DNA of 64,000 bases, from the NCBI RefSeq assembly GCF_033547095.1, contig NZ_CP137852.1:1-64000 (forward strand). The letters are read 5' to 3'. How positions within the stretch are numbered: the stretch's first letter is position 1; every line of letters starts with the position of its first letter. Under the pieces are notes generated by a model that did no database searches, was not told the DNA's origin, and saw only the letters and a list, made by a program, of their open reading frames with translations. Origin of the DNA: Sediminicoccus rosea (GTDB lineage Bacteria > Pseudomonadota > Alphaproteobacteria > Acetobacterales > Acetobacteraceae). Shown here piece by piece: positions 4,662 through 45,096 of the stretch. The position numbers were made by a program, and so were the translations under genes.

Positions 4662-4672
4662 GGAACCCCGCC

Positions 4673-5875: not shown

Positions 5876-5881
5876 TGCACC

Positions 5882-7027
5882 ATGGATTTTGATCTCAACG
5901 AGTCCCAGTCGCTCCTGCAGGACAGCATCCGCAAGACGCTGACGGCGAAATACGGCTTCGAGAATCGCAAGGCCTATATGGCCAGCGAAACCGGCTGGAG
6001 CCGCGAGATGTGGGCGCAGTACGCCGAGCTGGGTCTGCTCGGCCTGCCCTTTGCGGAGGAGGATGGCGGCTTCGGCGGCGGGCCGGAGGAGACCATGCTC
6101 GTCGCCGAGCAGATGGGGCGCCACATCACGCTGGAACCCTGGTTCAGCACCGTCGTGCTGGGCGGCGGCTTCCTGCGCCATGGCGCGGACACCGCCCTGC
6201 GGCAGGAGATGGTGGAGGGCGTCGCCGCGGGCGAAACCCTGCTCGCCTTCGCGCAGACCGAGCGGCAGTCCCGCTATGACCTCTTCGACGTGCAGACCAC
6301 GGCGAAGAAGGATGGCGCGGGCTGGGTCATCACCGGCCGCAAGGGCATGGTGCTGCATGGCGACACGGCGGATCATTTCTTCGTGACCGCCCGCGTCTCC
6401 GGCGCGTCGCGCGACAAGGGCGGCATCGGCGTCTTCGTGGTGCCCGCCACGGCCGATGGCGTGTCGGTGCGCGGCTTCCGCACGGTGGATGGCCAGCGCG
6501 CGGCGGAGGTGGATTTCACCGGCGCCCGCGCCACCCATGTGCTGGGCGATGCCGAGGGCGGCCTGCCGCTGGTGGATCGCGTGGTGGATGAGGCCATCGC
6601 GGTGCTGGCCGCCGAGGCGATCGGCGCGATGGACGTGGTCCATGCCATGACGCTCGACTACATGAAGACGCGCCAGCAATTCGGCCGCGCCATCGGCAGC
6701 TTCCAGGCGCTGCAGCACAAGGCGGCGGACATGCTGGTGGCGATCGAGCAGTCGCGCAGCATGGCCTATTTCGCCACCATGGCGGCGCAGGGCAGTGATG
6801 CGGCAGAGCGGCGGCGCAACATGCACGCGGTGAAGGCGCAGATCGGCCGCTCGCAGCGGCTGGTGGGCCAGCAGAGCATCCAGCTGCATGGCGGCATCGC
6901 CATGACGATGGAATACGCCGCCGGCCACTACTTCAAGCGGCTGACGGTGAACGAGGCGATGTTCGGCGATACCGACCATCACCTGCGCGCGCTGGCGGAT
7001 GCGGGCGGCCTGGTTCAGGCCGCCTGA
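5882..7027 (+). CDS. Acyl-CoA dehydrogenase, PimD-like small subunit
   Basis: A 381-residue acyl-CoA dehydrogenase beginning MDFDLNESQSLLQDSIRKTL, a start typical of the PimD small-subunit group. The FAD-side segments are divergent: the usual TEPxxGSD loop is replaced by FAQTERQSRYDLFDVQTTAK. The C-terminus (LHGGIAMTMEYAAGHYFKRL) lacks the canonical catalytic-Glu segment of homomeric enzymes. This is the pattern expected of the non-catalytic or cofactor-sharing partner in heterotetrameric acyl-CoA dehydrogenases. It lies 6 nt after the large subunit gene. The pairing is inferred from family knowledge and gene order. Confidence 0.9.
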   Translation: MDFDLNESQSLLQDSIRKTLTAKYGFENRKAYMASETGWSREMWAQYAELGLLGLPFAEEDGGFGGGPEETMLVAEQMGRHITLEPWFSTVVLGGGFLRHGADTALRQEMVEGVAAGETLLAFAQTERQSRYDLFDVQTTAKKDGAGWVITGRKGMVLHGDTADHFFVTARVSGASRDKGGIGVFVVPATADGVSVRGFRTVDGQRAAEVDFTGARATHVLGDAEGGLPLVDRVVDEAIAVLAAEAIGAMDVVHAMTLDYMKTRQQFGRAIGSFQALQHKAADMLVAIEQSRSMAYFATMAAQGSDAAERRRNMHAVKAQIGRSQRLVGQQSIQLHGGIAMTMEYAAGHYFKRLTVNEAMFGDTDHHLRALADAGGLVQAA

Positions 7028-7045
7028 GACGGCCTGGCCCGCGCC

Positions 7046-7414
7046 TTATCGGGTGCGGGCTGGAGCCGAGGTGCCGCTGGAACTGGAATTGCCTGGCACT
7101 GAGGCGGCCAGGGCCGCGGCAGCGATCAAAGGCAATGCGATCAGGCTGGGTGCGGCAAGGCCGAGCCCGGCAGAACCGCCCCCGCCGGCTTCCAGCATGG
7201 GGCGCGTCATGGGCTGTGCCGCCGGCTGGCCGGGCGCCGGAAGCCGCGGGCGCGGCGCACGCACCAGGGGCGGCCCATCCACCCCGCGTGGCGGAATGAC
7301 GATATCCGCCCCCGCCGGCACCACGACGACGCGCTGCTGCGCGACCGCCGGGCCCGTCAGCGCGGGCGCGGCGAGCATCGCCAGAGCAACCAAGGCCAGA
7401 TTCATGCAACGCAT
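7046..7414 (-). CDS. Small secreted protein of unknown function
   Basis: A 122-residue protein with a clear Sec signal peptide (MNLALVALAMLAAPALTGPAVAQ). The mature part is rich in Pro, Arg and Ala (VVVPAGADIVIPPRGVDGPP), then a Gly-rich linker, a hydrophobic stretch (LAAPSLIALPLIAAAALAAS) and a Ser/Gly tail. The second hydrophobic segment could be a membrane anchor. The start may be the Met at 7405, three codons later; neither has a strong ribosome site. It lies between convergent beta-oxidation genes and the isobutyryl-CoA dehydrogenase-like gene. I do not recognise a family. Confidence 0.6.
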   Translation of the reverse strand: MRCMNLALVALAMLAAPALTGPAVAQQRVVVVPAGADIVIPPRGVDGPPLVRAPRPRLPAPGQPAAQPMTRPMLEAGGGGSAGLGLAAPSLIALPLIAAAALAASVPGNSSSSGTSAPARTR

Positions 7415-7455
7415 GGTTGTTCGTAATCCCGGCCGCCCCGCCGGGGCAAGCGGAA

Positions 7456-8592
7456 TCAGCGCCCCAGCACCTGCCGCGCGATGATGACGCGCATGATCTC
7501 GTTCGTCCCCTCCAGGATGCGGTGCACGCGCAGATCGCGCACGATCTTCTCGATGCCGTAGTCGGCCAGGTAGCCATAGCCGCCGAGCAATTGCAGCGCC
7601 TCATCCGCCACGCGGTGGCCCACATCGGTGACGTGGCGCTTGGCCATGGCGCAGAAGAGCGTGGCGTCGGGCGCCTTCTGGTCCAGCTTGGTGCAGGCGC
7701 GCCAGAGGAAGGTGCGCGCCACCTCCAGCTCCGTCGCCATGTCGGCCAGGCGGAACTGCGTCGCCTGGAAATCCGAGATCGCCTTGCCGAAGGCGCGGCG
7801 CGTCTTCACGTAGTCCAGCGCGATGTCGAGCGCGGCCTGCGCGCCGCCCAGCGAACAGGCGGCGATGTTCAGCCGGCCGCCATCCAGCCCCGCCATGGCG
7901 TAGCGGAAGCCCTGGCCCTCCTCGCCCAGCAGGGCCTCGGCGGGCACGCGCGTGTTCTCGAAGATCACCTGGCGCGTGGGCTGCGCGTTCCAGCCCATCT
8001 TCTTCTCATTCGCCCCGAAGCTGAGCCCCGGCGCCTCCTTCGGCACCAGCATCGCCGAGACGCCATCGGCCCCCGGCCCACCTGTGCGCGCCATGGTGAG
8101 ATACAGGTCGGACGCGCCGGCGCCGCTGATGAACTGCTTCACGCCGTCCATCACATAGCCTTCGTTGTCGCGCTTCGCCTTCGTCGCGAGCGCCACCGCA
8201 TCGCTGCCCGAACCCGGCTCGGTGAGGCAGTAGGAGGCGATCTTCTCCATGGTCAGCAGGCTGGGCAGCCATTGCGCGCGCTGCGCCTCGCCGCCCCAGC
8301 GGTCGATCATCCAGGCGACCATGTTGTGGATCGAGAGGAAGGCGCTGGTGGTGGGGCAGCCCGTCGCCAGCGCCTCGAACACCACCGCGGCGTCGAGCCG
8401 CGTGAGGCCGGAGCCGCCGCTTTCCTCGCGCACATAAAGCCCCGCCATGCCGAGGCCCGCCGCCTCGCGGAACACGTCCACCGGGAAGTGGCGCTCCTCG
8501 TCCCAGCGAAGCGCGTGGGGGGCGATGCGCTCGCGCGCGAAATCCAGCGCGGTGTCTCGCAGCGCCTTGGTGTCCTCGGGCAGGTCAAACAT
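7456..8592 (-). CDS. Acyl-CoA dehydrogenase, isobutyryl-CoA dehydrogenase-like
   Basis: A 378-residue homomeric-type acyl-CoA dehydrogenase. It has CLTEPGSGSDAVALATKA in the FAD region, RRAFGKAISDFQATQFRLAD in the C-terminal domain, and the catalytic-Glu end HRILEGTNEIMRVIIARQVL. SAFLSIHNM near residue 95 is typical of isobutyryl-CoA dehydrogenases (ACAD8 group), which act in valine breakdown. The ATG at 8592 is chosen because it lies 8 nt inside the 3' end of the upstream indolepyruvate oxidoreductase gene. The coupling suggests translation from the same mRNA and a common role in amino-acid or branched-chain 2-oxo-acid catabolism. Substrate specificity is inferred. Confidence 0.9.
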   Translation of the reverse strand: MFDLPEDTKALRDTALDFARERIAPHALRWDEERHFPVDVFREAAGLGMAGLYVREESGGSGLTRLDAAVVFEALATGCPTTSAFLSIHNMVAWMIDRWGGEAQRAQWLPSLLTMEKIASYCLTEPGSGSDAVALATKAKRDNEGYVMDGVKQFISGAGASDLYLTMARTGGPGADGVSAMLVPKEAPGLSFGANEKKMGWNAQPTRQVIFENTRVPAEALLGEEGQGFRYAMAGLDGGRLNIAACSLGGAQAALDIALDYVKTRRAFGKAISDFQATQFRLADMATELEVARTFLWRACTKLDQKAPDATLFCAMAKRHVTDVGHRVADEALQLLGGYGYLADYGIEKIVRDLRVHRILEGTNEIMRVIIARQVLGR

Positions 8593-11500
8593 GCGTGGCC
8601 TCCAGGGCGGCCCAGCGGGCGCGGGTGGCTTCGACATTGCGGCGCTTCACCGGGCCGAAGCCCTTGATGCCGGCCGCCGCCTCGGCCCATTCGCAGGCTT
8701 GGGCGTAATTGGTGGGGTGCAGGCCCGCGAGCAGCTTTTCGATGCCAGCGCGGTACTCGCCGATCAGCGCGCGCTCCATCCGCCGCTCCTCCGTGTGGCC
8801 GAAGGGGTCGAGCAGGGTGCCGCGCAGGGCCTTGCCATGGCGCAGCATCCCCATCGCGCTGAGCATCCAGGGGCCGAACGTCATCTTGCGGATGCGGCCA
8901 TCGGAACCCGGTTTGGCCAGCAGCGGCGGCGCCAGATGCAGGTTGATGCGCGTGGTGCCGGTGAAGCCCTCCGCCAGCTTGGCTTGCCAGGCGGCGTCCG
9001 TGTGCAGCCGCGCCACCTCGTACTCATCCTTGTAGGCCATCAGGCGGTAAAGCTGCGTCGCCACCGCCCGAGTCAGTCGCGTCTCGCCCGGCAGTTCCGC
9101 CGCTTGCACGCGAGCCACGAAATCGGCGTAGCGGGCCGCATAACGCGCGGATTGATAGGCCGTCAGGTCGGCCACGCGGCGGGCGATCATCGCCTCCAGC
9201 GTCTCCGGCGCTTTCGGTGCTGCTTCGGCGGCGAGCCGCCCCGCCTCGAAGGCGGCGAGGTTCTTCGGCACGACGGCGCCGTTCAGCTCGATGGCACGCC
9301 GCAGCGCCTCGCGCGACATGGGGATCAGCCCGCGCTGGAAGGCGGCGCCGAGAAGGTAGATGTTCAGGAAGATGAGATCGCCGAATTCGCGCTCGATGGT
9401 GCGGGCGGCGGGCAGGGCCACCACCTCGCGCGTCACGGCGCGCACGCTCTCCAGCATGGCGGCGGGGTCGTCGCGCGTCTCGGGGTTCAGCACGAAGCGG
9501 CCGGTGGGCGAGACATCGGCACTCAGCACGACGCGCGAGCGCCCGGGGCCCAGCAGGGGTCGCGCCATGCGGCCATGCGCGCCGACGAGATCGGCCGCGA
9601 TCATCGCATCCGTCTGGCCCTGGCCAATGCGCGGGCTGGTCACCACCTCGCCCACGCGCCCGATGCGCAATTGGGCGTAGACGCCGCCGCCCTTCTGCGC
9701 GAGGCCGAGATTGTCCAGAGAGCGGACCGGCCGCCCTTCCAGATGCGCGGCCATGGCCAGGATGGCGGAGAGCGCCGTCACCCCCTGCCCGCCCACACCG
9801 GCCAGCAGGATGTTCCAGGCCTCGCCGGGCGCCGCTTCCGGCAGCACAGGCAACGGCGCTTCGTTGGCGATGACGGGTGTCGGCGGCTTCACCGGCTCCG
9901 CACCTTCCAGCGTGAGGAAGGAGGGACAGAAACCCTCGACACAGGAAAAATCCTGGTTGCAGCCGGATTGGTCGATGCGACGCTTGCGGCCCCATTGGGT
10001 CTCGATCGGCTCGATGGCGATGCAGTTCGAGGCGCGCGAGCAATCGCCGCAATCCTCGCACACCCGTGGATTGATCACGGCGCGCTTCGTGGCCTTGGGG
10101 GCCAGGTCCCGCTTGCGCTGGCGGCGCTTCTCGGTCGCGCATTGCTGGTCGTAGATCAGCACGGAACAGCCGGGCACGTCGCGCATCATGCGCTGCACCG
10201 CATCGAGTTCACTGCGCGGGTAGAAGGCGACGCTACGCGGGATCAGCGGGTCGCCCCGATGGCGGTCCGGGTCATCGCCGACGATGACCACCTTCGTCGC
10301 ACCCTCCGCCACCATCTGCGCCGCGATGCGCGGCACGGTCATCTCGCCATCCAACGGCTGGCCGCCGGTCATGGCAACGGCGGAATTCACCAGGATCTTG
10401 TAGGTGATGTTGGCCTTGCTCGCGATCGCCGCGCGGATCGCCAGCACGCCGGAATGGCCATAGGTGCCGTCGCCCATGTTGGTGAAGACATGCGGCGTCT
10501 CGGTGAAATGGTGCTGGCCGATCCAGGCCGCGCCCTCGCCACCCATATGGCTGAACAGGTCGCTCTCGCGATTCATGTCCTTGGCCAGGTAGTGGCAACC
10601 GATGCCGGCCAGCGCGTGGCTGCCCTCGGGCACGCGGGTCGAGGTGTTGTGCGGGCAGCCCGGGCAGAAATAGGGCTGGCGTACATCCAGCGGCTCGGCG
10701 GCGGCGGCGGCCAGCGCGTCGAGTTCGGCGATGCGCGCGGCGAGGCGCTCGGTGCGGAGCGCCTCGGGAAGGGTCTTGGCGAGGCCGCGCAGGATCATCG
10801 CGGAATCAAGCTCGGCCAGGTCGCTCAGCACATCCTTGCCGTGCAGGCGCGGACGCTCGGATTCCGCATAAAGCGCCTCGCGCAGTTGCGACTCGAGGAA
10901 GCTGCGGCGGTCCTCCACCACCAGCACGCTTTCCAGCCCGCGGCAGAATTCGCGCGCGGCGTCCCCATCCAGCGGCCAGGCCAGGCCGACCTTCCAGATT
11001 CGCAAGCCACCCATCCGCGCGAGTTCCGGCGTGATGCCGGCATCGGCCAGCGCCTGTTTCAGCGTGGACCAGGCCTTGCCGCGCACCGCGATGCCGAAGC
11101 GTGCGTTCGGCGCCTCCTGCACGACGCGGTTGAAGCCGTTGATCCGGGCGAAGGCCAAGGCCGCCGGCAGCTTGAAATGCCGCACCCGCTCCTCGATCGG
11201 CAAGGCCGCATCCTTCAGGCGGATGTGCAGACCACCTGGCGGGATCGCCACGCCATTGGGCGCCACGGTCATCAGCGTGGCGGGGTCCACCGTCAGGCTC
11301 ATGGTGGCGTCCATCGTCTCCGCGATGCACTTCATGCCGACCCAGAGGCCCGAGAAGCGCGAGAGTGCGATGGCCTTCACGCCATATTCCAGCACCTCGC
11401 CCACATCGGCGGGGTCCAGCATCGGCATCTCAAGATCCGCGAAGGCATATTCGGAGCCGCTGGTGACGGTGGAAGACTTGGACGCCGGGTCGTCCCCCGC

Positions 11501-11938
11501 CAGCGCCAGCACGCCGCCGAGCGGGGCCGTGCCCGCCCCATTCGCATGGCGCAGCACATCGCCGCTGCGATCCACGCCCGGCCCCTTGCCGTACCAGATG
11601 GCGAAGACGCCCTGGTGCTTCGCCTTGGGATAGAGGTTGAGCTGCTGCGTGCCCCAGCAGGCCGTCGCCGCCAGATCTTCGTTCAGCCCAGGCTCGAAGA
11701 CGATGCGGTGCTCGGCCAGCCGCCTCTTCTGCTTCCAGAGCTCCCGGTCGTAGCCGCCGAGCGGCGAGCCGCGGTAACCGCTGATATAGGCCGCCGTGTC
11801 CGATCCCTCGGCATCATCCAGCTCGCGCCGCATCAGCGGAATGCGCACCAGCGCCTGCGTGCCGGTCAGCAGGGTCTCGCGCCCCGCCGCTTCCCAACGC
11901 TCCTCCAGGGAGATGTCGGCGCGGATGATGCTGTTCAT
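8585..11938 (-). CDS. Indolepyruvate ferredoxin oxidoreductase family protein (fused subunits)
   Basis: A 1117-residue single-chain oxidoreductase that oxidatively decarboxylates aryl or branched 2-oxo acids to acyl-CoA, passing electrons to ferredoxin. The N-terminus (TAAYISGYRGSPLGGYDREL) is the pyrimidine/transketolase-like domain. A thiamine-diphosphate domain follows, with PYFCPGCPHNTST near residue 426. A cysteine-rich segment (CEDCGDCSRASNC to CVEGFCPSF, about 625-670) would hold an iron-sulfur cluster, and the gamma domain starts at ILLAGVGGQGVTALSAILA. The ATG at 11938 has a GGAG site upstream and follows the divergent lrp gene by 112 nt. The length agrees with the proteobacterial long form. 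A local Lrp regulator is usual for this family. Confidence 0.93.
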   Translation of the reverse strand: MNSIIRADISLEERWEAAGRETLLTGTQALVRIPLMRRELDDAEGSDTAAYISGYRGSPLGGYDRELWKQKRRLAEHRIVFEPGLNEDLAATACWGTQQLNLYPKAKHQGVFAIWYGKGPGVDRSGDVLRHANGAGTAPLGGVLALAGDDPASKSSTVTSGSEYAFADLEMPMLDPADVGEVLEYGVKAIALSRFSGLWVGMKCIAETMDATMSLTVDPATLMTVAPNGVAIPPGGLHIRLKDAALPIEERVRHFKLPAALAFARINGFNRVVQEAPNARFGIAVRGKAWSTLKQALADAGITPELARMGGLRIWKVGLAWPLDGDAAREFCRGLESVLVVEDRRSFLESQLREALYAESERPRLHGKDVLSDLAELDSAMILRGLAKTLPEALRTERLAARIAELDALAAAAAEPLDVRQPYFCPGCPHNTSTRVPEGSHALAGIGCHYLAKDMNRESDLFSHMGGEGAAWIGQHHFTETPHVFTNMGDGTYGHSGVLAIRAAIASKANITYKILVNSAVAMTGGQPLDGEMTVPRIAAQMVAEGATKVVIVGDDPDRHRGDPLIPRSVAFYPRSELDAVQRMMRDVPGCSVLIYDQQCATEKRRQRKRDLAPKATKRAVINPRVCEDCGDCSRASNCIAIEPIETQWGRKRRIDQSGCNQDFSCVEGFCPSFLTLEGAEPVKPPTPVIANEAPLPVLPEAAPGEAWNILLAGVGGQGVTALSAILAMAAHLEGRPVRSLDNLGLAQKGGGVYAQLRIGRVGEVVTSPRIGQGQTDAMIAADLVGAHGRMARPLLGPGRSRVVLSADVSPTGRFVLNPETRDDPAAMLESVRAVTREVVALPAARTIEREFGDLIFLNIYLLGAAFQRGLIPMSREALRRAIELNGAVVPKNLAAFEAGRLAAEAAPKAPETLEAMIARRVADLTAYQSARYAARYADFVARVQAAELPGETRLTRAVATQLYRLMAYKDEYEVARLHTDAAWQAKLAEGFTGTTRINLHLAPPLLAKPGSDGRIRKMTFGPWMLSAMGMLRHGKALRGTLLDPFGHTEERRMERALIGEYRAGIEKLLAGLHPTNYAQACEWAEAAAGIKGFGPVKRRNVEATRARWAALEATHV

Positions 11939-12050
11939 GAAGGTCTCCGGTCCCGGACGGATTATGACGATGGGAGACTGCGCTGGAAAGCGCCGGAGGT
12001 TTTGCCGCATTCTGTTGTGCAGTGCCGAAATGCCAGAAGGATCTTCCGCC

Positions 12051-12506
12051 ATGGACGCCATTGACCGCCGGATCCTCCGCGCCCTGCATGGTGAAGCTCG
12101 GCTGACCAATGCGGAGCTCGCCGAGCGTGCCGGCCTCTCTCCCTCGCCCTGCTGGGCCCGCGTGCGGCGGCTCGAGCAGGCAGGCGTGATCCGCGGCTAC
12201 CGGGCCGAGCTGGACCAGGCGAAGCTCGGCCTGCCCGACACCGTCATCATCGAGGTCATGACCGAGAAGCATGACGGGGAGCAGCTGGCGCGCTTCGAGG
12301 AGGCCATCGCGAACATGCCCGAGGTGATCGAGGCCTGGCTCGTGACCGGCGAATACGACTACATCCTGAAGGCGGCGGTGGGGGGCACGGCTGGGTATGA
12401 GCGCCTGCTGCGCGAGAAGATCTACCGCCTGCCCGGCGTGCGCCACACGCGGACCGCCTTCGGCATCCGCTGCCTCAAGCAGGTCTTCACGCCGCTTCCG
12501 GCATGA
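12051..12506 (+). CDS. Lrp/AsnC family transcriptional regulator
   Basis: A 151-residue regulator: an N-terminal helix-turn-helix (MDAIDRRILRALHGEARLTN, LSPSPCWARVRRLEQAGVI) and a C-terminal ligand-binding RAM domain. The ATG at 12051 has AGAAGGA about 8 nt upstream; another in-frame ATG at 12030 would add seven residues. The gene is divergent from the indolepyruvate oxidoreductase gene across a 112-bp intergenic region, so it is the likely local regulator, responding to an amino acid or 2-oxo acid. The oxidoreductase link is inference from position. Confidence 0.92.
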   Translation: MDAIDRRILRALHGEARLTNAELAERAGLSPSPCWARVRRLEQAGVIRGYRAELDQAKLGLPDTVIIEVMTEKHDGEQLARFEEAIANMPEVIEAWLVTGEYDYILKAAVGGTAGYERLLREKIYRLPGVRHTRTAFGIRCLKQVFTPLPA

Positions 12507-12529
12507 AGCTTGGCCGCAGGGCTGATCCA

Positions 12530-12555
12530 CGTCTTTGGTGATGCCGCCAAAGACG
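12530..12555. terminator. Bidirectional terminator hairpin
   Basis: CGTCTTTGG (12530-12538) and CCAAAGACG (12547-12555) form a perfect 9-bp stem with an 8-nt loop, exactly in the gap between the convergent lrp gene and the hypothetical gene ending at 12564. There is no long T-run, as is common in very GC-rich genomes. Confidence 0.6.
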
Positions 12556-12563
12556 ACCAGACC

Positions 12564-13238
12564 CTAGGCCGGCAGCGGCCCCAGCAGCCCATGCTCCAGC
12601 GAGGTGCGATAGACCCGCGCCACGAAATCCTCGGCAAGGGCGGCCGCGCGCAGCGCCGCCACATCCTCCGGCACCAGGGGCGTCAGCGAGGGGAGGAAGC
12701 GCGGGATCGGCTGGACCGGCGCCGGGCGGCCGAGCAGCGCCTCGATCACCTCGTCGCTCAGCGGCGCCAGCGCGCCGCAGGTCATCTCGAAGCCGTCCAG
12801 ACGCATCAGACGGCCGGCGAAGGCGCAGCCCTGCGCCTCCTCCCGCGCCAGCATCTGGTCCTGGATATGCAGTGGCGTGCCGCGCAGCAGATCCTCCGCC
12901 ATGACGCCGCCCTCGGGATGGGTGGCGCCCACACGGAAGAAGGTGAAATGCGCGCGGGATAGGGCGGCCAGCACACGCGCCTCCTCGCTGCCCTCCGGGT
13001 AGTCGCCGGCCTTCGCCTCCCGGTCCAGCGCGCGCGTATGCCCGCCCACCGGGCCGAGCACGCCGAGGTCGAGCACGAGCTGGAACTGCGCCTCGTTCGA
13101 GACCCGCACCTCCTTCTCGTGCCAGACGCCGAGCGCGCGCCCCTGCGAGGCCGCGCTGGCCTGGGGGATGCGGCGCGCGGCCGCACTCAGGATGCGCTCG
13201 CGGATGGCGCGATAGGCCTCGTAGGCGGTGCTGCTCAT
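12564..13238 (-). CDS. Hypothetical protein, partner of the Ldh-type dehydrogenase
   Basis: A 224-residue soluble protein with no signal peptide or membrane segment, beginning MSSTAYEAYRAIRERILSAA. The ATG at 13238 lies 1 nt after the TGA of the upstream dehydrogenase gene, so the two are probably translated together. The sequence has many acidic and Arg residues and the segment AHFTFFRVGATHPEGGVMAE, but I do not recognise a family. Close coupling suggests a role in the same metabolic step as the dehydrogenase. No function is assigned. Confidence 0.8.
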   Translation of the reverse strand: MSSTAYEAYRAIRERILSAAARRIPQASAASQGRALGVWHEKEVRVSNEAQFQLVLDLGVLGPVGGHTRALDREAKAGDYPEGSEEARVLAALSRAHFTFFRVGATHPEGGVMAEDLLRGTPLHIQDQMLAREEAQGCAFAGRLMRLDGFEMTCGALAPLSDEVIEALLGRPAPVQPIPRFLPSLTPLVPEDVAALRAAALAEDFVARVYRTSLEHGLLGPLPA

Positions 13239-13239
13239 C

Positions 13240-14334
13240 TCAGATGCCTTCCGGCCCGTTGATGCCGAGCGAGGCGGCCGTGTCGAGGATGCCCTGCCAG
13301 GCATCGCGCGGCAGGGGCAGGCCGGTCACGCGGCGCTGCGCGCGGCGCTCATTCTCGGGGTCGCCAGGCGCCATGATCGGCGCCTCGGGGTCAGCCGGGC
13401 GGCACGACTTCACCCAGGCGACATAGTCCTGCGCGGCCTGATGGAAGGCCGCCTCATCGGCGAAATGCGCGGGCGAGAGGTAGATGGAGAGCATGCCATT
13501 GGCGATGCGCCCGCGCTCGCCGATGGGGCCGGAGCAGCCGCCGCCGGTCAGGGCACCGGCCAGCAATTCGCAGATGAAGGCGAGGCCGGAGCCCTTATGG
13601 TCGCCGAAGGCGCGGATGGCGCCGGTGCCGCCCGCGGGGTTGCGCGGGCCGACAGGCGGATAATCGCCATAGAGCGTGCGCGGATCGCCCGACATCCGGC
13701 CATCGGCCGTGATGAGCGCGTTCTCCGGCAGCGCCTTGCCGCCATTCGAGGCGACCAACACCTTGCCCTCGGCCACGAAGGAGGTGGCGAAGTCGAGGAT
13801 CACCGGCCCCCCCGGCAGGGGCACGCCGACGCAGAAGGGGGCGGTCGAGAAGCGCCGCTCGGCGCCGCCGAAGGGGGCCACCAGCACCGAGCCCGCGACG
13901 TTGACGAAATGGATGGAGATCAGCCCCTCCGCCGTCGCCATCTCGGCATAGTCGCCGGTGCGGCCGATATGGCCGGCATTGCGCAGGCCCACGATGCAGG
14001 CGCCATTCGCCCGCGCGCGCTCGATGCCCAGGCGCGTGGCCTGCTCCGCTACCGTCTGGCCGAAGCCGAACTTGCCGTCGAGCAGCACGAAACTGCCGCC
14101 ATCGGTGACGATCTCAGCCGTCTGTCCGGCCAGCACATGGCCCGCCCGCTGCCAATCCACGTAGCGCGGCACGCGCACCACGCCGTGGCTGTCATGGCCC
14201 GCGAGATTGGCGCCGACCAGGTGGTTGGAGATCCGCGCGGCCTCCGCCGGCGCGCAGCCCGAAGCGGTGAAGATGCGGGTGACGAAGCCCTCGAGCTCGG
14301 CTTCGGGGATATAGACGTAGTCAGGCTCGGCCAT
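13240..14334 (-). CDS. Ldh family (malate/L-lactate/ureidoglycolate-type) dehydrogenase
   Basis: A 364-residue NAD(P)-dependent dehydrogenase of the Ldh2 fold, distinct from classical Rossmann lactate dehydrogenases. The family signature GHDSHGVVRVPRYVDW (near residue 55), LRNAGHIGRTGDYAEMA with the active-site His, and GPVILDFATS are all present. A strong GGAGGA site precedes the ATG at 14334. The gene is followed with 1-nt spacing by a hypothetical gene. The substrate cannot be told from sequence: relatives reduce or oxidise malate, lactate, ureidoglycolate, 2,3-diketogulonate or sulfolactate. Confidence 0.92.
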   Translation of the reverse strand: MAEPDYVYIPEAELEGFVTRIFTASGCAPAEAARISNHLVGANLAGHDSHGVVRVPRYVDWQRAGHVLAGQTAEIVTDGGSFVLLDGKFGFGQTVAEQATRLGIERARANGACIVGLRNAGHIGRTGDYAEMATAEGLISIHFVNVAGSVLVAPFGGAERRFSTAPFCVGVPLPGGPVILDFATSFVAEGKVLVASNGGKALPENALITADGRMSGDPRTLYGDYPPVGPRNPAGGTGAIRAFGDHKGSGLAFICELLAGALTGGGCSGPIGERGRIANGMLSIYLSPAHFADEAAFHQAAQDYVAWVKSCRPADPEAPIMAPGDPENERRAQRRVTGLPLPRDAWQGILDTAASLGINGPEGI

Positions 14335-15307: not shown

Positions 15308-16396
<1,089 letters not shown>

Positions 16397-38090: not shown

Positions 38091-39899
38091 TCACGCGCCC
38101 TCGGCGGCCGCCATGGGGAGGGTGATGGTGAACACCGCCCCCGCCACCGCATTGCCCGCCGTGATCGTTCCCCCCATCGCGGTCACCAGCCCGTGGGAAA
38201 TCGACAGGCCGAGGCCTGTGCCGTTGTCGGGCCCCTTCGTCGTCACGAAGGGCTCGAACACATGCGCCGCGATCTCGGGCGGAATGCCCCCGCCAGTGTC
38301 GGCGACCCGCAGCCGCACGGTGCCCTCGGCCGCCTCGGTGGCAAGGGTGACCCGGCGCGGTGCCCCCTCGGGCGCATGGGCCAGGGCGTCCCGCGCGTTG
38401 ATCAGCAGATTCGTCAGCACCTGCTCCAGCGCGACGGGATGGCCGAGCACGAACCGCGCATCCGGCGCGATGTCCGTCACCACCTCGATGTCCGCATCGC
38501 GCATCAAGCCGCCGATCAGGACCATCACATTCCCGATGGCGGCCTCGACCGGGATCGCGCGCACCGGCGCGCCCGGCGGCTCGCCCCGGGCAAAGCGCCG
38601 GAGATTGCTGATGATGCTGCGCGCCCGGACCACCTGCCCGATCACCGTCTCCAGCCGCGCATCAATCCCGGCGGCCTCGATCCGTTGCGCGTCCAGCTGC
38701 GCCATCTCGGTCCCGGTCATGATCGCCTGGAGCGGCTGCGTCAGTTCATGCGCCAGCCCCGTCGCCATCTCGCCCAGCGAGGCGAGGCGCCCCGAGGCCG
38801 CCGCCCGGGCCTGGGCCTCGCGTTCATTCGTGATGTTGATGCTGTAGCCGACGAGCGTGATGCCCCCATCGGGCCGCCGCTCCTCCACCCGCATGCTGGT
38901 CCGCAGCCACGTCACCCCGCTGCCGTCCGGCCGCCGCATGGACCAGTCGGCGGTGGCGGTGCCGGACCGCCGGGCGTTCTCCATCGCTCGCGTCACCGGA
39001 CTGCGATCCTCGGCGAGGGTCGCGAGGTTGTCGAAGTCGTTCAGGGCGCCCGGCGGAAAGCCGGTGACCGCCTCGACATTGCCGCCCCGGTAGAGCAGGC
39101 GCGTGCGGCCATCGGCGTCGAACTCGCGCACGAAGATCAGGGCGGGCAGGCCGCCATGCAGGCGCTCCACCGTGGCGCGCCCCTCCTTGAGGGAGGCAGC
39201 GCGGCGCTCGCCTTCGTCCAGCGCGTCCCATTCACGGGCCACGGTGAGCATCAGGAAGGGCAGGGTCGTTCCATACAGGGCGGTCAGCAGCCCTGGCACA
39301 CCGATGAACAGCGCCTCCGCGCCCTCAGAGGGACCAAATCCGAAGAGGAGCGAGGACAGGATGATCGCGACCAGGACAATGACGACGAGGCCGACGAGCA
39401 TGGCCATGTCCAGCGCCGCGCGCAGCCTGTGCCGCCGGTAGATCCTGACGAGGTCGAGGATCGCCCAGGCGAAGATGCCGTAGATCAGGATGGAAAGGGA
39501 ACCGACCCGCAATTCGCGCGCCGCCATGAAGCCTGGAACAAGGCAGGCCATCAGCCAGAGCAAGGGCGGCAGGAGGACGATCGCGCGGGGCGGTGAATGC
39601 CCGGCCAATTGCCTGGCGCCGAGCCAGAGCAACGCCACAGCGAGCAACTGGATCGCGTTGACGAAGCTGAACGCGAATTCGGGCGGCACGTCGGCCCGCA
39701 CCGCATGACCGAAGGAGGCGAAGGCCTGCACCATCGCTGCGCCGATCCAGGCGGCGGGCACCGCCCTTGCCCCGCGCTGTGCGCTGTATTGGCTGCTCCG
39801 CACCAGCAGGACGCTGCCGACAAGTCCGATGAAGCCCGCGGAGAAGAGAATGGAGGGTGCGTCGAGAAGCCCAGCCAAGGATCGGATTCCGCGAAGCAA
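38091..39899 (-). CDS. Membrane-bound sensor histidine kinase with PAS domain
   Basis: A 602-residue kinase. Residues about 10-225 contain six or seven membrane helices (for example ALDMAMLVGLVVIVLVAIIL). A PAS domain follows (about 245-370, with GGNVEAVTGFPPGAL and GITLVGYSINITNERE). The H-box is GLAHELTQPLQAIMTG, with the phosphoryl His near 383. The ATPase domain has N-box TNLLINARDALAH, G1 DTGGGIPPEI and G2 GTGLGLSISHGLV. No receiver or response-regulator gene is adjacent, so it is an orphan kinase. The signal is unknown. Confidence 0.92.
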   Translation of the reverse strand: MLRGIRSLAGLLDAPSILFSAGFIGLVGSVLLVRSSQYSAQRGARAVPAAWIGAAMVQAFASFGHAVRADVPPEFAFSFVNAIQLLAVALLWLGARQLAGHSPPRAIVLLPPLLWLMACLVPGFMAARELRVGSLSILIYGIFAWAILDLVRIYRRHRLRAALDMAMLVGLVVIVLVAIILSSLLFGFGPSEGAEALFIGVPGLLTALYGTTLPFLMLTVAREWDALDEGERRAASLKEGRATVERLHGGLPALIFVREFDADGRTRLLYRGGNVEAVTGFPPGALNDFDNLATLAEDRSPVTRAMENARRSGTATADWSMRRPDGSGVTWLRTSMRVEERRPDGGITLVGYSINITNEREAQARAAASGRLASLGEMATGLAHELTQPLQAIMTGTEMAQLDAQRIEAAGIDARLETVIGQVVRARSIISNLRRFARGEPPGAPVRAIPVEAAIGNVMVLIGGLMRDADIEVVTDIAPDARFVLGHPVALEQVLTNLLINARDALAHAPEGAPRRVTLATEAAEGTVRLRVADTGGGIPPEIAAHVFEPFVTTKGPDNGTGLGLSISHGLVTAMGGTITAGNAVAGAVFTITLPMAAAEGA

Positions 39900-40033: not shown

Positions 40034-41620
40034 CTAGGTCCGGCGCAGGTTCCACAGCATCGGGTTCGGCGCCTGCAGCACGCCCGTCAGGTCGCTGCGG
40101 AACGCCGTGCGCAGGCGGAACAGGCCGGTGGGTGCGATCGGCACCGCCTCCCACAGCAGCGCCTGGAGGCGCTGGAAGGCGGCGGCCTGGGCCTCGGCGT
40201 CGGCGGCCAGCGTCCAGGCCTCCACCTCGGCCTCCACCGCCGCGTCGGTCGGCCAGCCGGCCCAGGCCTGGGCGCCGTTCATGCGGATCGCCCAGCTCAC
40301 CGCCGGGTTGGCGATGGTGGCGGCGGGGCCGTTGGTGTTGTGCAGGTTCCAGCCGCCCTGCGCGGGCGGGGCGCGGTTGGCGCGGCGGGCGATGATGCTG
40401 GCCCAGTCGCTCTCCACCGCCTGGATGTTCACGCCGAGGCGCCGCATCAGGTCCACCGTCACGCGGCCCTGCTGCGTCACCGCCGGAAAGTCGCTCGGAT
40501 TGATGTGAATGATCGGCTCGCCGTTGTAGCCGGCCTCGCGCAGCGCATCGCGGGCGCGCTGCATCGCCACCTCGCCGCGCGGTGCCGCGGGGAATTCGGT
40601 GGCACCAGGCAGGCCGCAGGGGAACATGGCGTGGCATTGCTGCCAGTCCTGCGGTAGGGCCACGGCCTGCATGTAGTCGGGCTGCACCACCACGTCGCGG
40701 ATGGCGCGGCGCACGCGCACATCGTTGAAGGGCGGGTGCAGGTGGTTGAAGCGGATGAAGCCGAGGAAGCCGTTGGGGTCGTAGATCTGCGTGCGGGTGC
40801 CGCGGTCGCGGTCCAGCACGGGCACAAGGTCCGGCAGCGGGTATTCGATCCAGTCGATCTCGCCGGTGCGGAGTGCGGCGGCCGCCGTCCCGCCATCCGG
40901 GATCCAGATGATCTCCAACCGGTCGAAATGCACGCGCTTGCCGCCCGCCGCGGCCTCGGCCGGTTCCTCGCGCGGGAGATAGGCCTCGTTGCGCGCATAG
41001 GCCGCGCGGGAGCCGGGGGTGTATTCGGCGGCAAGGAAGCGCCAGGGACCGGAGCCGATCATCGCCTCTGGGCCGAGGGCGCGGTCCGGCGGCGTGCTGG
41101 CGAAGCGCTCGGGCATCATGAAGCAGGGTGACGCGCCGGGCTTGGCCAGCGCATCGAGCAGCGCGGGGAAGGGCCGGTTCAGGCGGAACTGGATGGTCGC
41201 GTCATCCGGCGCGGAGAGTTCCGCCACCGCGCGCATCAGCACCTGGCCGAAGCCGTCACGCACCGCCCAGCGGCGGATGCTGGCCACGCAGTCACGGCCG
41301 CGCACCGGCTCGCCATCATGGAAGCGCAGGCCGGGGCGCAGCGTGATGGTCCAGGTCAGGCCATCGGCCGAGACGCTATGCCCCTGGGCCATCTGCGGAT
41401 GCGGGCGCAGCGCGCGGTCGGCACCGTAGAGCGTGTCGAAGACGCAATAGGCATGCGTCGTCACGATCGTCGTCGGGTTGAAGATCGGGTCCAGCACCGC
41501 GAGCGCGGCCTGCGGCATGAAGCGCAGGGTGCGGGCGCGCGCGGACTGCGCGAGGGCGGGGCCAAAGGGGGAAGTTGAAGCACTGGCGCCAGCAAGGGCC
41601 AGGAAAGCGCGGCGGTCCAT
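40034..41620 (-). CDS. Family-5 solute-binding protein under a TPP riboswitch
   Basis: A 528-residue periplasmic binding protein of the DppA/OppA type with an N-terminal signal (MDRRAFLALAGASASTSPFG, cleavage near ALAQ). Family features: LRPGLRFHDGEPVRGRD, IGSGPWRFLAAEYTPGS and RFNHLHPPFNDVRVRRAIRD. No permease or ATPase gene is next to it. The ATG at 41620 has GGAGG 6 nt upstream, and the leader holds a complete TPP riboswitch plus a hairpin that hides this site. The protein is therefore probably made when thiamine diphosphate is scarce and may bind thiamine, a precursor, or a peptide-like thiamine salvage compound. The ligand is inferred from regulation only. Confidence 0.9.
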   Translation of the reverse strand: MDRRAFLALAGASASTSPFGPALAQSARARTLRFMPQAALAVLDPIFNPTTIVTTHAYCVFDTLYGADRALRPHPQMAQGHSVSADGLTWTITLRPGLRFHDGEPVRGRDCVASIRRWAVRDGFGQVLMRAVAELSAPDDATIQFRLNRPFPALLDALAKPGASPCFMMPERFASTPPDRALGPEAMIGSGPWRFLAAEYTPGSRAAYARNEAYLPREEPAEAAAGGKRVHFDRLEIIWIPDGGTAAAALRTGEIDWIEYPLPDLVPVLDRDRGTRTQIYDPNGFLGFIRFNHLHPPFNDVRVRRAIRDVVVQPDYMQAVALPQDWQQCHAMFPCGLPGATEFPAAPRGEVAMQRARDALREAGYNGEPIIHINPSDFPAVTQQGRVTVDLMRRLGVNIQAVESDWASIIARRANRAPPAQGGWNLHNTNGPAATIANPAVSWAIRMNGAQAWAGWPTDAAVEAEVEAWTLAADAEAQAAAFQRLQALLWEAVPIAPTGLFRLRTAFRSDLTGVLQAPNPMLWNLRRT

Positions 41621-41626
41621 CCATTT

Positions 41627-41658
41627 CCTCCATGCGGCGCGCGGACGACGAATGGAGG
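41627..41658 (-). promoter_or_regulatory. Ribosome-site-sequestering hairpin (riboswitch expression platform)
   Basis: On the minus strand CCTCCAT (41658-41652) is the exact complement of ATGGAGG (41633-41627), and the latter contains the GGAGG ribosome site of the gene starting at 41620. The 18-nt loop in between is GC-rich. This hairpin lies just after the TPP aptamer and would block translation when formed. Confidence 0.65.
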
Positions 41659-41694
41659 GATGGCCCCCAGGCGCAGGACGCGCAGAGGGCCGAA

Positions 41695-41820
41695 AGCACC
41701 GCTCCCTTCGCCGGTACGAACCGGATCAGGTTCCAGGGATCGCGGGATGCATCCCGCCTCTCAGCCCGGCGACCGCGCGGGGGTTTCGCGCGGGGGGTCA
41801 GGGCTCACCCAGGTGACGCT
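41695..41820 (-). promoter_or_regulatory. TPP riboswitch (THI element)
   Basis: Read on the minus strand the aptamer has all consensus parts. P1 is AGCGTC (41820-41815) with GGTGCT (41700-41695). P2 is GGGT with ATCCC. P3 is AGCCC with GGGCT, extended by a CCGCGCG/CGCGCGG hairpin. CTGAGA follows, then a P3a hairpin GCGGGATGCATCCCGC, then CCTGGAACCTGATCCGG and TACCGGCGAAGGGA of P4/P5. Thiamine diphosphate binding would lower expression of the gene at 41620. The remainder of the 354-bp gap to the next gene (41821-41974) shows only its promoter region. Confidence 0.95.
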
Positions 41821-41974
41821 GTCGTGATGGGCCTCCCCGAGGCGGCTGGCAAGCCCTGGCCGCAGGAAAACCGGGCGGCATAATGCGCGCCAGGTCATGC
41901 AACTTGCGATTGAAGTGCCGCGAGCGTCCCTGTTAGCCTGCCACCCGCCGCCGAAGGCCAAAGGGAGAGAAACG

Positions 41975-42976
41975 ATGACGCTGTCACGCCGCGCGGGCCT
42001 CGGGCTCGCCGCCATGGGTCTTGCCGCCCCCTTCATGGCGGCCCCCTCCATGCCGGCCCGGGCCGCGGCCCCCTTCCGCAACCAGGCCGCCCCCGCCTGG
42101 TATCGCTTCCGCATCGGCGAGTTCGAGGCGACGGTGATTTCCGACGGCGCGCTCCCGCTCGGCAAGCCGGGCGATGGGTTTCCGGGCGCCCCGCCGGCCG
42201 AGATGAACCGCATCCTCACCGACAACTTCCTGCCGACCGACGGCGTTGTGCTGGAGCAGAACATCCTGGTGCTGAACACCGGCCGGCAGCTCATCCTCTT
42301 CGACACCGGCATGGGCGAGAGCATGGGCAATGACAGCCGCATGTTCGGCCCCACCACGGGGCGCATGGTGCAGAATCTCCGCGCCGCCGGGATCGAGCCA
42401 GCGCAGATCGACATCGTCGCCGTCACCCACGCGCATTGCGACCATTGCTGGGGCCTGGTGGATGCATCCGGCGCGCGCGTCTTCCCCAACGCGCAGGTCG
42501 CGATCAGCGAGCTGGACCTGCGCTTCTGGACGGATGACGCGAACAAGCGCGGCCCAGCCTTCATGCCCATCTTCATCGAGGGCGCGAAGCGCAACCTCAA
42601 CGCCTATCGGGATCGGATCATTCCGGTGCGCGACGAACAGCCGGTGGTGCCCGGCGTCACGGCCCTGGCCACGCCGGGGCACACTATCGGGCACCATGTC
42701 TTCGCCATCAGCAGCGGCGGGCGGACGGTGATCAACTCCGGCGACCTCGCGCACCACCATGCCATCATGCTGCGCCGCCCCGCCTGGGAATTCGCCTTCG
42801 ACAGCGACCCCGCGCAATCCGCCCGCTCGCGCGCCCGCATGCTGGACCGCGTGGCGACGGACCGGCACGCGCTGCTGAGCTACCACTTCCCCTGGCCGGG
42901 CCTTGGCCATGTCGCGCGGCAGGGGGATGGCTATGCCTGGGTGCCGGCGCCGATGAACGTGACCGGGCTGGGTTGA
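41975..42976 (+). CDS. Tat-exported metallo-beta-lactamase-fold hydrolase
   Basis: A 333-residue MBL-fold enzyme. The ATG at 41975 has GGGAGAG upstream and starts a twin-arginine signal (LSRRAGLGLAAMGLAAPFMA). The metal motif is VTHAHCDHCWG (HxHxDH), with further ligands in ALATPGHTIGHHVFA and VINSGDLAHHH and the late His in LLSYHFPWPG. Family members are lactonases, glyoxalase II-like or sulfatase-like enzymes. It lies 84 nt upstream of the TRAP permease genes, so it may act on the same compound in the periplasm. Substrate unknown. Confidence 0.9.
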   Translation: MTLSRRAGLGLAAMGLAAPFMAAPSMPARAAAPFRNQAAPAWYRFRIGEFEATVISDGALPLGKPGDGFPGAPPAEMNRILTDNFLPTDGVVLEQNILVLNTGRQLILFDTGMGESMGNDSRMFGPTTGRMVQNLRAAGIEPAQIDIVAVTHAHCDHCWGLVDASGARVFPNAQVAISELDLRFWTDDANKRGPAFMPIFIEGAKRNLNAYRDRIIPVRDEQPVVPGVTALATPGHTIGHHVFAISSGGRTVINSGDLAHHHAIMLRRPAWEFAFDSDPAQSARSRARMLDRVATDRHALLSYHFPWPGLGHVARQGDGYAWVPAPMNVTGLG

Positions 42977-43060: not shown

Positions 43061-43612
43061 TTGGACAAGCCCTTCGAGGGAATCGCGCAGGCGCAGGAGG
43101 CCGGCTACGCCGATGACCTGCGCCATTTCTCCTTCCGCAACTACGGCGTCGAGGACTGGGTCGGCCTCGGCCTGCTCTGGGTGCTGGGCATCCTCGTCTT
43201 CACGCAGTTCTTCAGCCGCTACGTCCTGAACGACAGCGTCGCCTGGACGGAGGAAGTCGCGCGCTACCTGCTGATCATCCTCACCTTCATCGGCAGCGCC
43301 GGGGCGGTCCGGCGCGGCACGCATATCCGCGTCGAGGCGCTGGAAATGGCCCTGCCGCCGCGCGGACGGCGCGTGCTCTGGGCCGTGCAGGATCTCGGCC
43401 GGCTGGCCTTCTGGGGCTTCGGCGCCTGGATCAGCGTGGACCTGTCCGAGCGCATGGGCGTGATGCCGATGGACAGCCTGAATGCCTCGCTCGCCTGGGT
43501 CTATTGGCCGGTGGCGGCGGGCTTCGCCGGCATGTTCCTCCGCGAGTGCTGGTGGGTCTGGCGCCGCTGGCGGCACGGAGATGCGCCAAGCCAGCAGGAT
43601 GTGCTGGCTTGA
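43061..43612 (+). CDS. TRAP transporter small permease (DctQ family)
   Basis: A 183-residue membrane protein with four hydrophobic segments. The start is a TTG at 43061 behind GGGGGAAG. The DctQ signature is WTEEVARYLLIILTFIGSAG followed by RRGTHIRVE. It works with the large DctM permease 200 nt downstream. No DctP-type binding protein gene is in the window next to it. Confidence 0.9.
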   Translation: MDKPFEGIAQAQEAGYADDLRHFSFRNYGVEDWVGLGLLWVLGILVFTQFFSRYVLNDSVAWTEEVARYLLIILTFIGSAGAVRRGTHIRVEALEMALPPRGRRVLWAVQDLGRLAFWGFGAWISVDLSERMGVMPMDSLNASLAWVYWPVAAGFAGMFLRECWWVWRRWRHGDAPSQQDVLA

Positions 43613-43621
43613 TATCTGTGT

Positions 43622-43807
43622 GCCCTCAGGCGCCGGCCGCGGGGCGACCGGATTCGTGCGTGGCAGCTCTCACATGACGAAGGCCTGCGCGACTTTAGAG
43701 GATTTGGCCGCACCGCGGCCGGCGCGCCGCGACCTCCTCCCCAACCCGCGCCACATCTCCACGGCGCGAAGGCCAGGCGGCGGAGCCGCCGCCCGCTGCT
43801 TGAGGGC
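43622..43807. repeat. Intergenic palindromic element, copy 2
   Basis: Fills the 203-bp gap between the dctQ and dctM genes. GCGCCGGCCGCGG (43630-43642) has a perfect inverted copy at 43713-43725. The left end begins GCCCTCAGG and the right end GCTTGAGGGCAT (43798-43809) is the exact inverse of the 12-mer ATGCCCTCAAGC found at 50382. No gene fits this gap. Confidence 0.55.
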
Positions 43808-43815
43808 ATGAAAAC

Positions 43816-45096
43816 ATGACCGCCGCCATCCTGCTCTTCGGCTTCTTCGGGCTTCTCGCGCTCGGCCTGCCGGTCGCCATCGCGCTGGCCGGCGCCTCCA
43901 TCATCTTTGCGCTGGTGGATGGCTCGATTCCGCTGCTCGCCATCGTGCATCGCATGGTGGGCGGCGTGGATTCCTTCCCACTGCTCTGCGTGCCCTTCTT
44001 CATCTTCGCCGGCATGCTGATGAACTCGTCCGGCATCACCGAGCGCATCTATGACTTCGCGGTGGCCGCCGTCGGCTGGATGAAGGGCGGGCTCGGCCAG
44101 GTGAATGTCGTGGGCTCGGTCGTCTTCGCGGGCATGAGCGGCACGGCGGTGGGCGATGCCGCGGGCCTCGGCACCATCGAGGTGCGGGCCATGCGCGCCC
44201 ATGGCTATGACCCGAAATTCGCCGTCGGCATCACGGCGGCCAGTTCCATGCTGGGGCCGCTGCTGCCGCCCTCATTGCCGCTCGTGATCTACGGCGTCTC
44301 GGCCAATGCGAGCATCGGGCAGCTCTTCGCCGCCGGCATCGTGCCGGGCCTGCTGCTCGCCTCCTGCCTGATGGTGATGGTCTGGTGGTATGCGCGGCGG
44401 TACGGCTATGGCGCGGACGCCAAGTTCCGCGTCTATGAGCTGGGCCGCACGCTGATGCGCGGCCTGCTGCCGCTGCTCACTCCGGTGCTGATCATCGGCG
44501 GCATGCGCTTCGGCCTCTTCACACCGACCGAGGGCGCGATCTGCGCGGTGGCCTATGCGCTCTTCCTCGGCGTCATCGTCTACCGCACCCTCGGCTTCCG
44601 CGCGATCTGCAAGGTGAGCTTCGAGACGGTGGAGGTGACGGCCACCATCCTCCTCATCGTCGCCGCATCGGAGATCTTCGGCTGGCTGCTGACGACGACG
44701 CGCGTCAGCGAGCAGGTGGTGGGCTGGGTGCTCTCCATCACCGAGCAGAAATGGCTGATCCTGCTGATCGCCAATGTCTTCCTGCTGCTGGTGGGCCTGG
44801 CGATCGAGCCGCTGCCGGCCATCCTGATCCTGGTGCCGATCATGCTGCCCATCATGGAAAGCATCGGCGTGGACCCGGTGCATTTCGGGCTGATCATGGT
44901 GCTGAACCTGTGCATCGGGCTGCTGACGCCGCCCGTGGGCATCGTGCTCTTCATCCTGGCCCGCGTGGGCGGCATCTCCTTCGAGGATGCGGCCCGCGGC
45001 GTCATGCCCTTCCTGGTGCCGCTGGTGGGCGTGCTGCTGCTCTGCACCTATGTGCCGGAGGTGGTGATGTACCTGCCCAACCGGTGGTATCGGTAG
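43816..45096 (+). CDS. TRAP transporter large permease (DctM family)
   Basis: A 426-residue, roughly 12-helix ion-coupled permease. Family signs: FGFFGLLALGLPVAIALAGA, GSVVFAGMSGTAVGDAAGLG, MLGPLLPPSLPLVIYGVSAN and LNLCIGLLTPPVGIVLFILA. It takes up a carboxylate or similar solute together with DctQ and a periplasmic DctP protein, which is not encoded nearby. It ends 9 nt from the convergent phaR gene. Confidence 0.93.
   Translation: MTAAILLFGFFGLLALGLPVAIALAGASIIFALVDGSIPLLAIVHRMVGGVDSFPLLCVPFFIFAGMLMNSSGITERIYDFAVAAVGWMKGGLGQVNVVGSVVFAGMSGTAVGDAAGLGTIEVRAMRAHGYDPKFAVGITAASSMLGPLLPPSLPLVIYGVSANASIGQLFAAGIVPGLLLASCLMVMVWWYARRYGYGADAKFRVYELGRTLMRGLLPLLTPVLIIGGMRFGLFTPTEGAICAVAYALFLGVIVYRTLGFRAICKVSFETVEVTATILLIVAASEIFGWLLTTTRVSEQVVGWVLSITEQKWLILLIANVFLLLVGLAIEPLPAILILVPIMLPIMESIGVDPVHFGLIMVLNLCIGLLTPPVGIVLFILARVGGISFEDAARGVMPFLVPLVGVLLLCTYVPEVVMYLPNRWYR

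Follow-up and report, generated by a model that had tools for sequence, protein, structure and literature searches.

ThiXYZ, with its binding protein ThiY, is an NMT1/THI5-type importer of HMP (4-amino-5-hydroxymethyl-2-methylpyrimidine) or formylaminopyrimidine. Control of thiamin and thiamin-precursor transporter genes by TPP riboswitches (RF00059, the THI element) is well established, and PMC3766115 counts 19 TPP-linked transporter groups. In Pelagibacter, ThiV serves HMP uptake and its gene lies behind a TPP riboswitch, as reported in PMC11452348. Family-5 solute-binding proteins (SBPs) can share a transporter: PMC12728205 reports that DppA1-5 of Pseudomonas aeruginosa use one Dpp permease. 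PMC3284542 reports that ThiB and family-5 SBPs rise together in Ketogulonicigenium under glutathione; no conclusion here rests on this. The open-access literature matches listed for our searches contain no description of a TPP-controlled family-5 SBP, and an earlier annotation of the gene is possible; nor do they include a paper that treats Roseococcus or Roseomonas as thiamine auxotrophs. The riboswitch and the SBP fold are already known. What appears to be new is their conserved pairing, along with the thiC-less setting and the absence of a dedicated permease.

The locus lies in a window of 64,000 nucleotides from Sediminicoccus rosea. We consider it probable that it encodes a TPP-repressed SBP for a B1 vitamer, with the permease encoded elsewhere. 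Its proposed role is like that of ThiXYZ, and its SBP family differs from that of ThiY. As with ThiV, a thiC-less organism carries a TPP riboswitch before a gene for what would be pyrimidine uptake; ThiV is a sodium symporter, whereas the window protein belongs to the periplasmic ABC-type SBPs and has no dedicated permease. P. aeruginosa DppA1-5 offer a described parallel for several family-5 SBPs on one permease; those proteins bind peptides, and the abstract of PMC12728205 does not describe riboswitch control. The features of the locus are as follows.

40034-41620, minus strand: family-5 (cluster C) solute-binding protein, 528 aa (SBP_bac_5, PF00496, E 1.1e-57)
41627-41658, minus strand: predicted Shine-Dalgarno-sequestering hairpin, anti-Shine-Dalgarno CCTCC (41658-41654) pairing with Shine-Dalgarno GGAGG (41631-41627)
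41685-41820, minus strand: TPP riboswitch aptamer (RF00059) with an extended P3 arm, from a covariance-model match and conservation before orthologs
41824-41853, minus strand: promoter-like CTTGCC-N18-CATCAC just before the aptamer, found by eye, and by eye also in the leaders of loci L016 and L017

The initial annotation had placed a TPP aptamer at 41820-41695 on the minus strand. Indeed, when a 501-base stretch was searched with permissive filters, positions 1-105 of the 105-position RF00059 model matched at 41820-41685 with 53.4 bits (E 9.3e-10), and a whole-genome search recovered the same aptamer at E 2.3e-9. The score is 0.9 bit short of the Rfam gathering score of 54.3, and for this reason a gathering-threshold Rfam scan of the window reported a tRNA alone. 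Given the full-length match, we regard the "no TPP riboswitch" outcome of that default scan as a false negative. The alignment contains a long insert in the P3 arm, and the shortfall in score goes with this insert; the element thus departs from the usual RF00059 member in its insert, in its sub-gathering score and in controlling a family-5 SBP. By eye, the aptamer core (CTGAGA ... GAACCTGATCCGG ... ACCGGCGAAGGGA) is intact and identical in many relatives. We still assign the window element to RF00059 because the orthologous leaders of near relatives with the same layout (genomes G005, G015 and G019) score 56.7-57.9 bits, above the gathering threshold. Folded without constraint, the aptamer stretch does no better than its shuffles (z -0.69, 42 of 200 as good), so it is the covariance model, together with conservation, that carries the call. 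In the first genome set, 8 of 19 SBP-linked aptamers fall below the gathering threshold (35.6-53.4 bits), and default annotation therefore misses them, which makes such aptamers a blind spot of default Rfam annotation. A sigma-70 consensus scan did not find a promoter at the window leader. That TPP controls the SBP gene is, in our judgment, close to certain.

Read along the minus strand, the aptamer (41820-41685) is followed by a linker with a G+C-rich hairpin, by the Shine-Dalgarno hairpin and by the start codon at 41620. The hairpin at 41658-41627 had been proposed to pair with the GGAGG ribosome site, and this holds up: its arms of 13 nt each (41627-41639 and 41646-41658) are 85% complementary, and folded alone it reaches -15.9 kcal/mol (z -2.97), with 2 of 200 shuffles equally good. 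The fold of the 86-nt linker is less clear (z -1.52, 18 of 200 shuffles as good). We then considered 66 of 69 leaders, L071, L073 and L091 being left out as no start with a Shine-Dalgarno sequence was found. Pairing of the Shine-Dalgarno sequence with the upstream linker averages 0.71 in these leaders versus 0.56 in shuffles, and it exceeds the leader's own shuffled mean in 51 of the 66 (binomial p 1e-5, for sequences that are related). Only 17 of the 66 have 3 or fewer of 60 shuffles as good; for the window leader the figure is 13 of 60. Overall, the pairing is modestly above shuffles. A consensus scan found no terminator between the aptamer and the SBP gene, its sole terminator-like site lying upstream of the leader. 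Since the pairing exceeds shuffles and no terminator was seen, the riboswitch likely represses the SBP at translation, judging from the sequence. A full-length model match with a downstream Shine-Dalgarno-sequestering hairpin is what the locus shares with TPP riboswitches of the translational type.

The protein is a family-5 SBP, as first annotated: PF00496 is its sole Pfam match at E <= 0.001, with no match to PF09084. By eye, its N-terminus resembles a Tat signal peptide (RR-AFLALAGA...ALAQ). Among named families, the nearest are SBPs for glutathione, nickel and dipeptides, yet in each of the nine NCBIfam families with a match the score falls far short of the cut-off; for the equivalogs, GsiB gives 75.3 bits against 594, NikA 62.2 against 393 and DppA 39 against 1005. 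A predicted model (mean pLDDT 83.4) yields Foldseek matches of the DppA, OppA and NikA class. Closest both by sequence (387 bits, about 40% identity) and by fold is 8VDX, an extracellular SBP of Bordetella bronchiseptica; its entry title names no ligand, and the sole literature match for it concerns cytochrome c. In a quick LG+G4 tree, which gave warnings on long paralog branches, 81 orthologs (the window protein and the best 80 of 116 relatives) fall into a single group (SH-aLRT 100) that excludes 12 paralogs. At 22 positions the residue is at least 97% conserved among the 81 orthologs and shared by at most 1 of the 12 paralogs; these include T55, C59, W193, Y260, Y280, F285, R308, D325, H330, Q384, N430, D459 and W490. 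This pattern points to a special ligand.

The initial annotation had suggested looking for the riboswitch and such a binding protein together in relatives. They do occur together. Orthologs are present in 20 of 41 genomes (S. rosea and 40 relatives), the other 19 at 62-96% identity to the window protein, and RF00059 is directly upstream in all 19 testable genomes of this first set, S. rosea included; in G017 too little contig remains for the test, only 48 bases separating the gene start from its end. Scanning named genomes gave 116 relatives, of which the best 80 (59-95% identity) were kept. Nearly all of their titles name a genus of the Roseomonas group or an alphaproteobacterial MAG of no set placement; a few MAGs carry odd labels (Asaia, Microbispora). 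Two of these best 80 loci, L076 and L111, are cut by contig ends; of the 78 that could be tested, 68 have the aptamer core, 91-244 nt ahead of the point where the protein match starts. The pairing is therefore no accident. The initial annotation had also said that finding the gene in relatives without any riboswitch would count against its reading. This does occur, in the remaining 10 of 78 loci: Dankookia rubra, Belnapia moabensis, B. arida, B. rosea, a Belnapia MAG, Roseicella frigidaeris, Roseicella sp. DB1501, Paeniroseomonas aquatica, Paracraurococcus ruber and a Craurococcus MAG. Rfam searches found nothing at L114, L116, L118 and L128 (E <= 0.1) or at L119, L120, L129 and L130 (gathering threshold only), while absence at L099 and L127 was read from the aptamer-core search. 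These loci are a minority nested among riboswitch-bearing lineages, with at least four changes on the SBP tree that do not distinguish gain from loss, and thiC is present in all seven of their genomes whose status is known. Synteny was considered as a cause of the linkage and ruled out: when 12 neighbours from the window were looked up across 81 loci (window plus best 80 of 116), each recurred in at most 9, so the linkage is not a by-product of conserved gene order.

We then turned to the thiamine genes. No ThiC was found in the S. rosea genome (98.7% complete, 2 contigs) by a search that was positive in 13 of 14 known genomes used as a control. ThiG lies behind the only other TPP riboswitch of the genome; the gap between the two fits ThiS, which could be made out by eye when the homologous leaders L040, L046 and L053 were read. 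ThiE and ThiD are present. A TenA-like protein scores 119.7 bits, below the cut-off of 130; it is the weaker of two PF03070 matches, and the stronger was rejected as TenA, being PqqC. Thiamine pyrophosphokinase (TPK_catalytic) was found in none of 25 genomes (control, 7 of 14), and ThiB exceeded its cut-off in none of them, with weak matches in 12 (control over cut-off, 1 of 14). Nine genomes of this set lack thiC and have the ortholog (G000, which is S. rosea, G002, G003, G004, G010, G011, G014, G015 and G018). A strong ThiG match is present in 8 of the 9, as is ThiE in 8 and ThiD in 8, and the three misses fall in assemblies of 91%, 74% and 84% completeness. Since the pyrimidine branch is missing and the thiazole branch is kept, the gene pattern suggests that the pyrimidine, or a compound yielding it, is taken up, and favours the pyrimidine moiety over thiamine itself.

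The same question can be put to the named isolates, which account for 43 of the best 80 loci and to which the RF00059 and ThiC counts were confined. ThiC is absent from 13 of 42 such genomes. Each of the 13 has one RF00059 match, in a search whose stricter filters can lose weak matches, and in 12 it stands directly before the SBP gene; in Roseomonas rosulenta (G058) the lone match is near one contig end and the SBP starts 33 bases from the end of another contig. Merging both sets by hand (8 genomes with identical coordinates) gave 54 different genomes with the ortholog, 19 without ThiC and 35 with thiC. Its occurrence in these 35 means that the SBP is not tied to auxotrophy. Seventeen of the 19 thiC-less genomes have a single RF00059 match, directly before the SBP in 16; the other two, S. 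rosea and G015, have an extra one before thiG. Linkage is seen in 18 of 18 testable thiC-less genomes versus 27 of 34 testable thiC-bearing ones (Fisher two-sided p 0.08, one-sided 0.04, kinship uncorrected). The riboswitch was thus never seen missing where ThiC is missing, a statistically weak result. The state of thiC changes at least seven times on the SBP tree, which does not tell gain from loss, and acquisition of thiC by transfer and repeated loss are equally possible. In the close relatives G009 (L152) and G006 (L153), thiC stands in differing surroundings; in G009 it adjoins ORFs that by eye resemble an IS3-type transposase.

The SBP had been described as an orphan without permease or ATPase genes. 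A tblastn search with S. rosea DppBCDF (E <= 1e-15, matches over 150 aa) agreed, finding no Dpp-type permease in the 64-kb window; the only match there is to an ATPase, of 28-30% identity, at 15686-16384. In a search with the same proteins at E <= 1e-10, none of 80 loci, many of them cut short by contig ends, showed a Dpp-type permease less than 5 kb from the SBP. The nearest candidates for an adjacent permease in relatives, DppB/DppC at L107 (36%, from 5.6 kb) and ATPases at L075 (6.4 kb) and L130 (7.4 kb), were rejected. Elsewhere, the S. rosea genome carries one dppBCDF operon that includes four family-5 SBPs in tandem (L146, G000:C1:2943000-2962000, positions 3358-13979, minus strand). The same operon, with 85-92% identity per gene and 2-4 SBPs, is found in G003, G004, G010, G011 and G018, so that dppBCDF with multiple SBPs is present in 6 of 6 thiC-less genomes examined, S. 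rosea included (dppF of G018 is past a contig end). A permease that apparently serves several SBPs is thus available. That it also partners the window SBP is a suggestion to which we give roughly even weight.

Taken together, these data suggest the following course of events. At high TPP the aptamer would close and the downstream hairpin would bury the Shine-Dalgarno sequence, leaving the SBP untranslated; at low TPP the Shine-Dalgarno sequence would be freed, and the SBP would be made and exported to the periplasm. There it could bind HMP or a close vitamer and hand it to a Dpp/Gsi-type ABC permease common to other SBPs, and ThiD and ThiE would join the imported pyrimidine to the thiazole from the ThiG branch. 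In this group of Roseomonas-like bacteria, the arrangement most likely serves cells that cannot make half of vitamin B1 and scavenge it from outside. The initial annotation had proposed uptake of thiamine, a precursor or a derivative through a shared permease. This proposal is strengthened by linkage without synteny, by the absence of thiC with a retained thiazole branch, by the lack of TPK and of any ThiB over cut-off and by the multi-SBP dppBCDF operon; its thiamine option is now less favoured than the pyrimidine. The SBP likely takes up thiamine or a precursor. For an HMP-type pyrimidine as the main cargo, the chances seem about balanced.

The same circuit could carry thiamine or a phosphorylated form of it (TMP, TPP), making the SBP a functional replacement for ThiBPQ. 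Family-5 pockets accept larger ligands, which counts for this cargo, as does the lack of an above-cut-off ThiB in all 25 genomes. TPP riboswitches also commonly control thiamine transporters (PMC3766115). Imported thiamine, however, would need a kinase other than TPK, and with whole thiamine as the main supply it would be difficult to see why 8 of the 9 thiC-less genomes in the first set retain the thiazole branch; we consider this cargo rather unlikely. We reasoned that the protein might instead be an ordinary importer of peptides, glutathione or amines under TPP control, supplying, for example, a thiazole precursor such as cysteine or glycine. The best named matches, GsiB, NikA and DppA, would suit such a role, though all are far under their cut-offs, and so would the many family-5 paralogs of the same genome (11 matches in G000). 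Yet with thiC lost and the thiazole genes retained, it is the pyrimidine that is missing, and the 22 ortholog-specific positions point to a special ligand; an ordinary importer is improbable. Least probable is a decayed aptamer in S. rosea with regulation lost. A score just below the gathering threshold and the missing riboswitch of 10 relatives fit decay, but by eye the core shows no damage and matches that of many relatives exactly, and leaders with the same layout pass the threshold.

Returning to pyrimidine uptake, we tentatively propose, at somewhat less than even confidence, a class of B1-precursor uptake in which an HMP-specialised, TPP-switched family-5 SBP works on a general peptide-type permease, and in which Roseomonas-group lineages dispense with thiC and keep the thiazole branch. 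If true, family-5 SBPs, usually named just peptide-type, would join the B1 salvage repertoire, and thiC-less life in part of a large Acetobacteraceae group would be explained. It would also follow that a general permease can be given a new task through a riboswitch on a single SBP.

Two further thiC-less genomes have no ortholog. In G021, from another genus, the one riboswitch stands before genes for a TonB-dependent receptor and for an SBP of the NMT1/THI5 type, the family of ThiY (L151, 4797-8141, minus strand), and a PF03070 (TenA/PqqC family) match lies about 2 kb away; judging by gene content, the receptor is a possible outer-membrane route for a B1 vitamer. In G022 (91% complete), neither ortholog nor riboswitch was found.

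Several neighbours of the SBP gene in the window deserve a brief description. About 135 bases behind it on the same strand is a sensor histidine kinase gene (38091-39899, minus strand), with no response regulator noticed beside it; the SBP and kinase were considered as one module and rejected, since just 2 of the 81 loci, one of them the window, have this kinase close to the SBP. Genes for the small and large TRAP permease subunits (DctQ and DctM) lie at 43061-45093 (plus strand), with no DctP binding protein noticed alongside. They were rejected as partners, standing beside the SBP in only 7 of 81 loci, and TRAP systems are not known to use family-5 SBPs. Divergent from the SBP gene, at 41897-42973 (plus strand), is a gene for a protein of the metallo-beta-lactamase fold, whose best NCBIfam match, the AidB-type quorum-quenching lactonase, gives 148.8 bits where the cut-off is 360.
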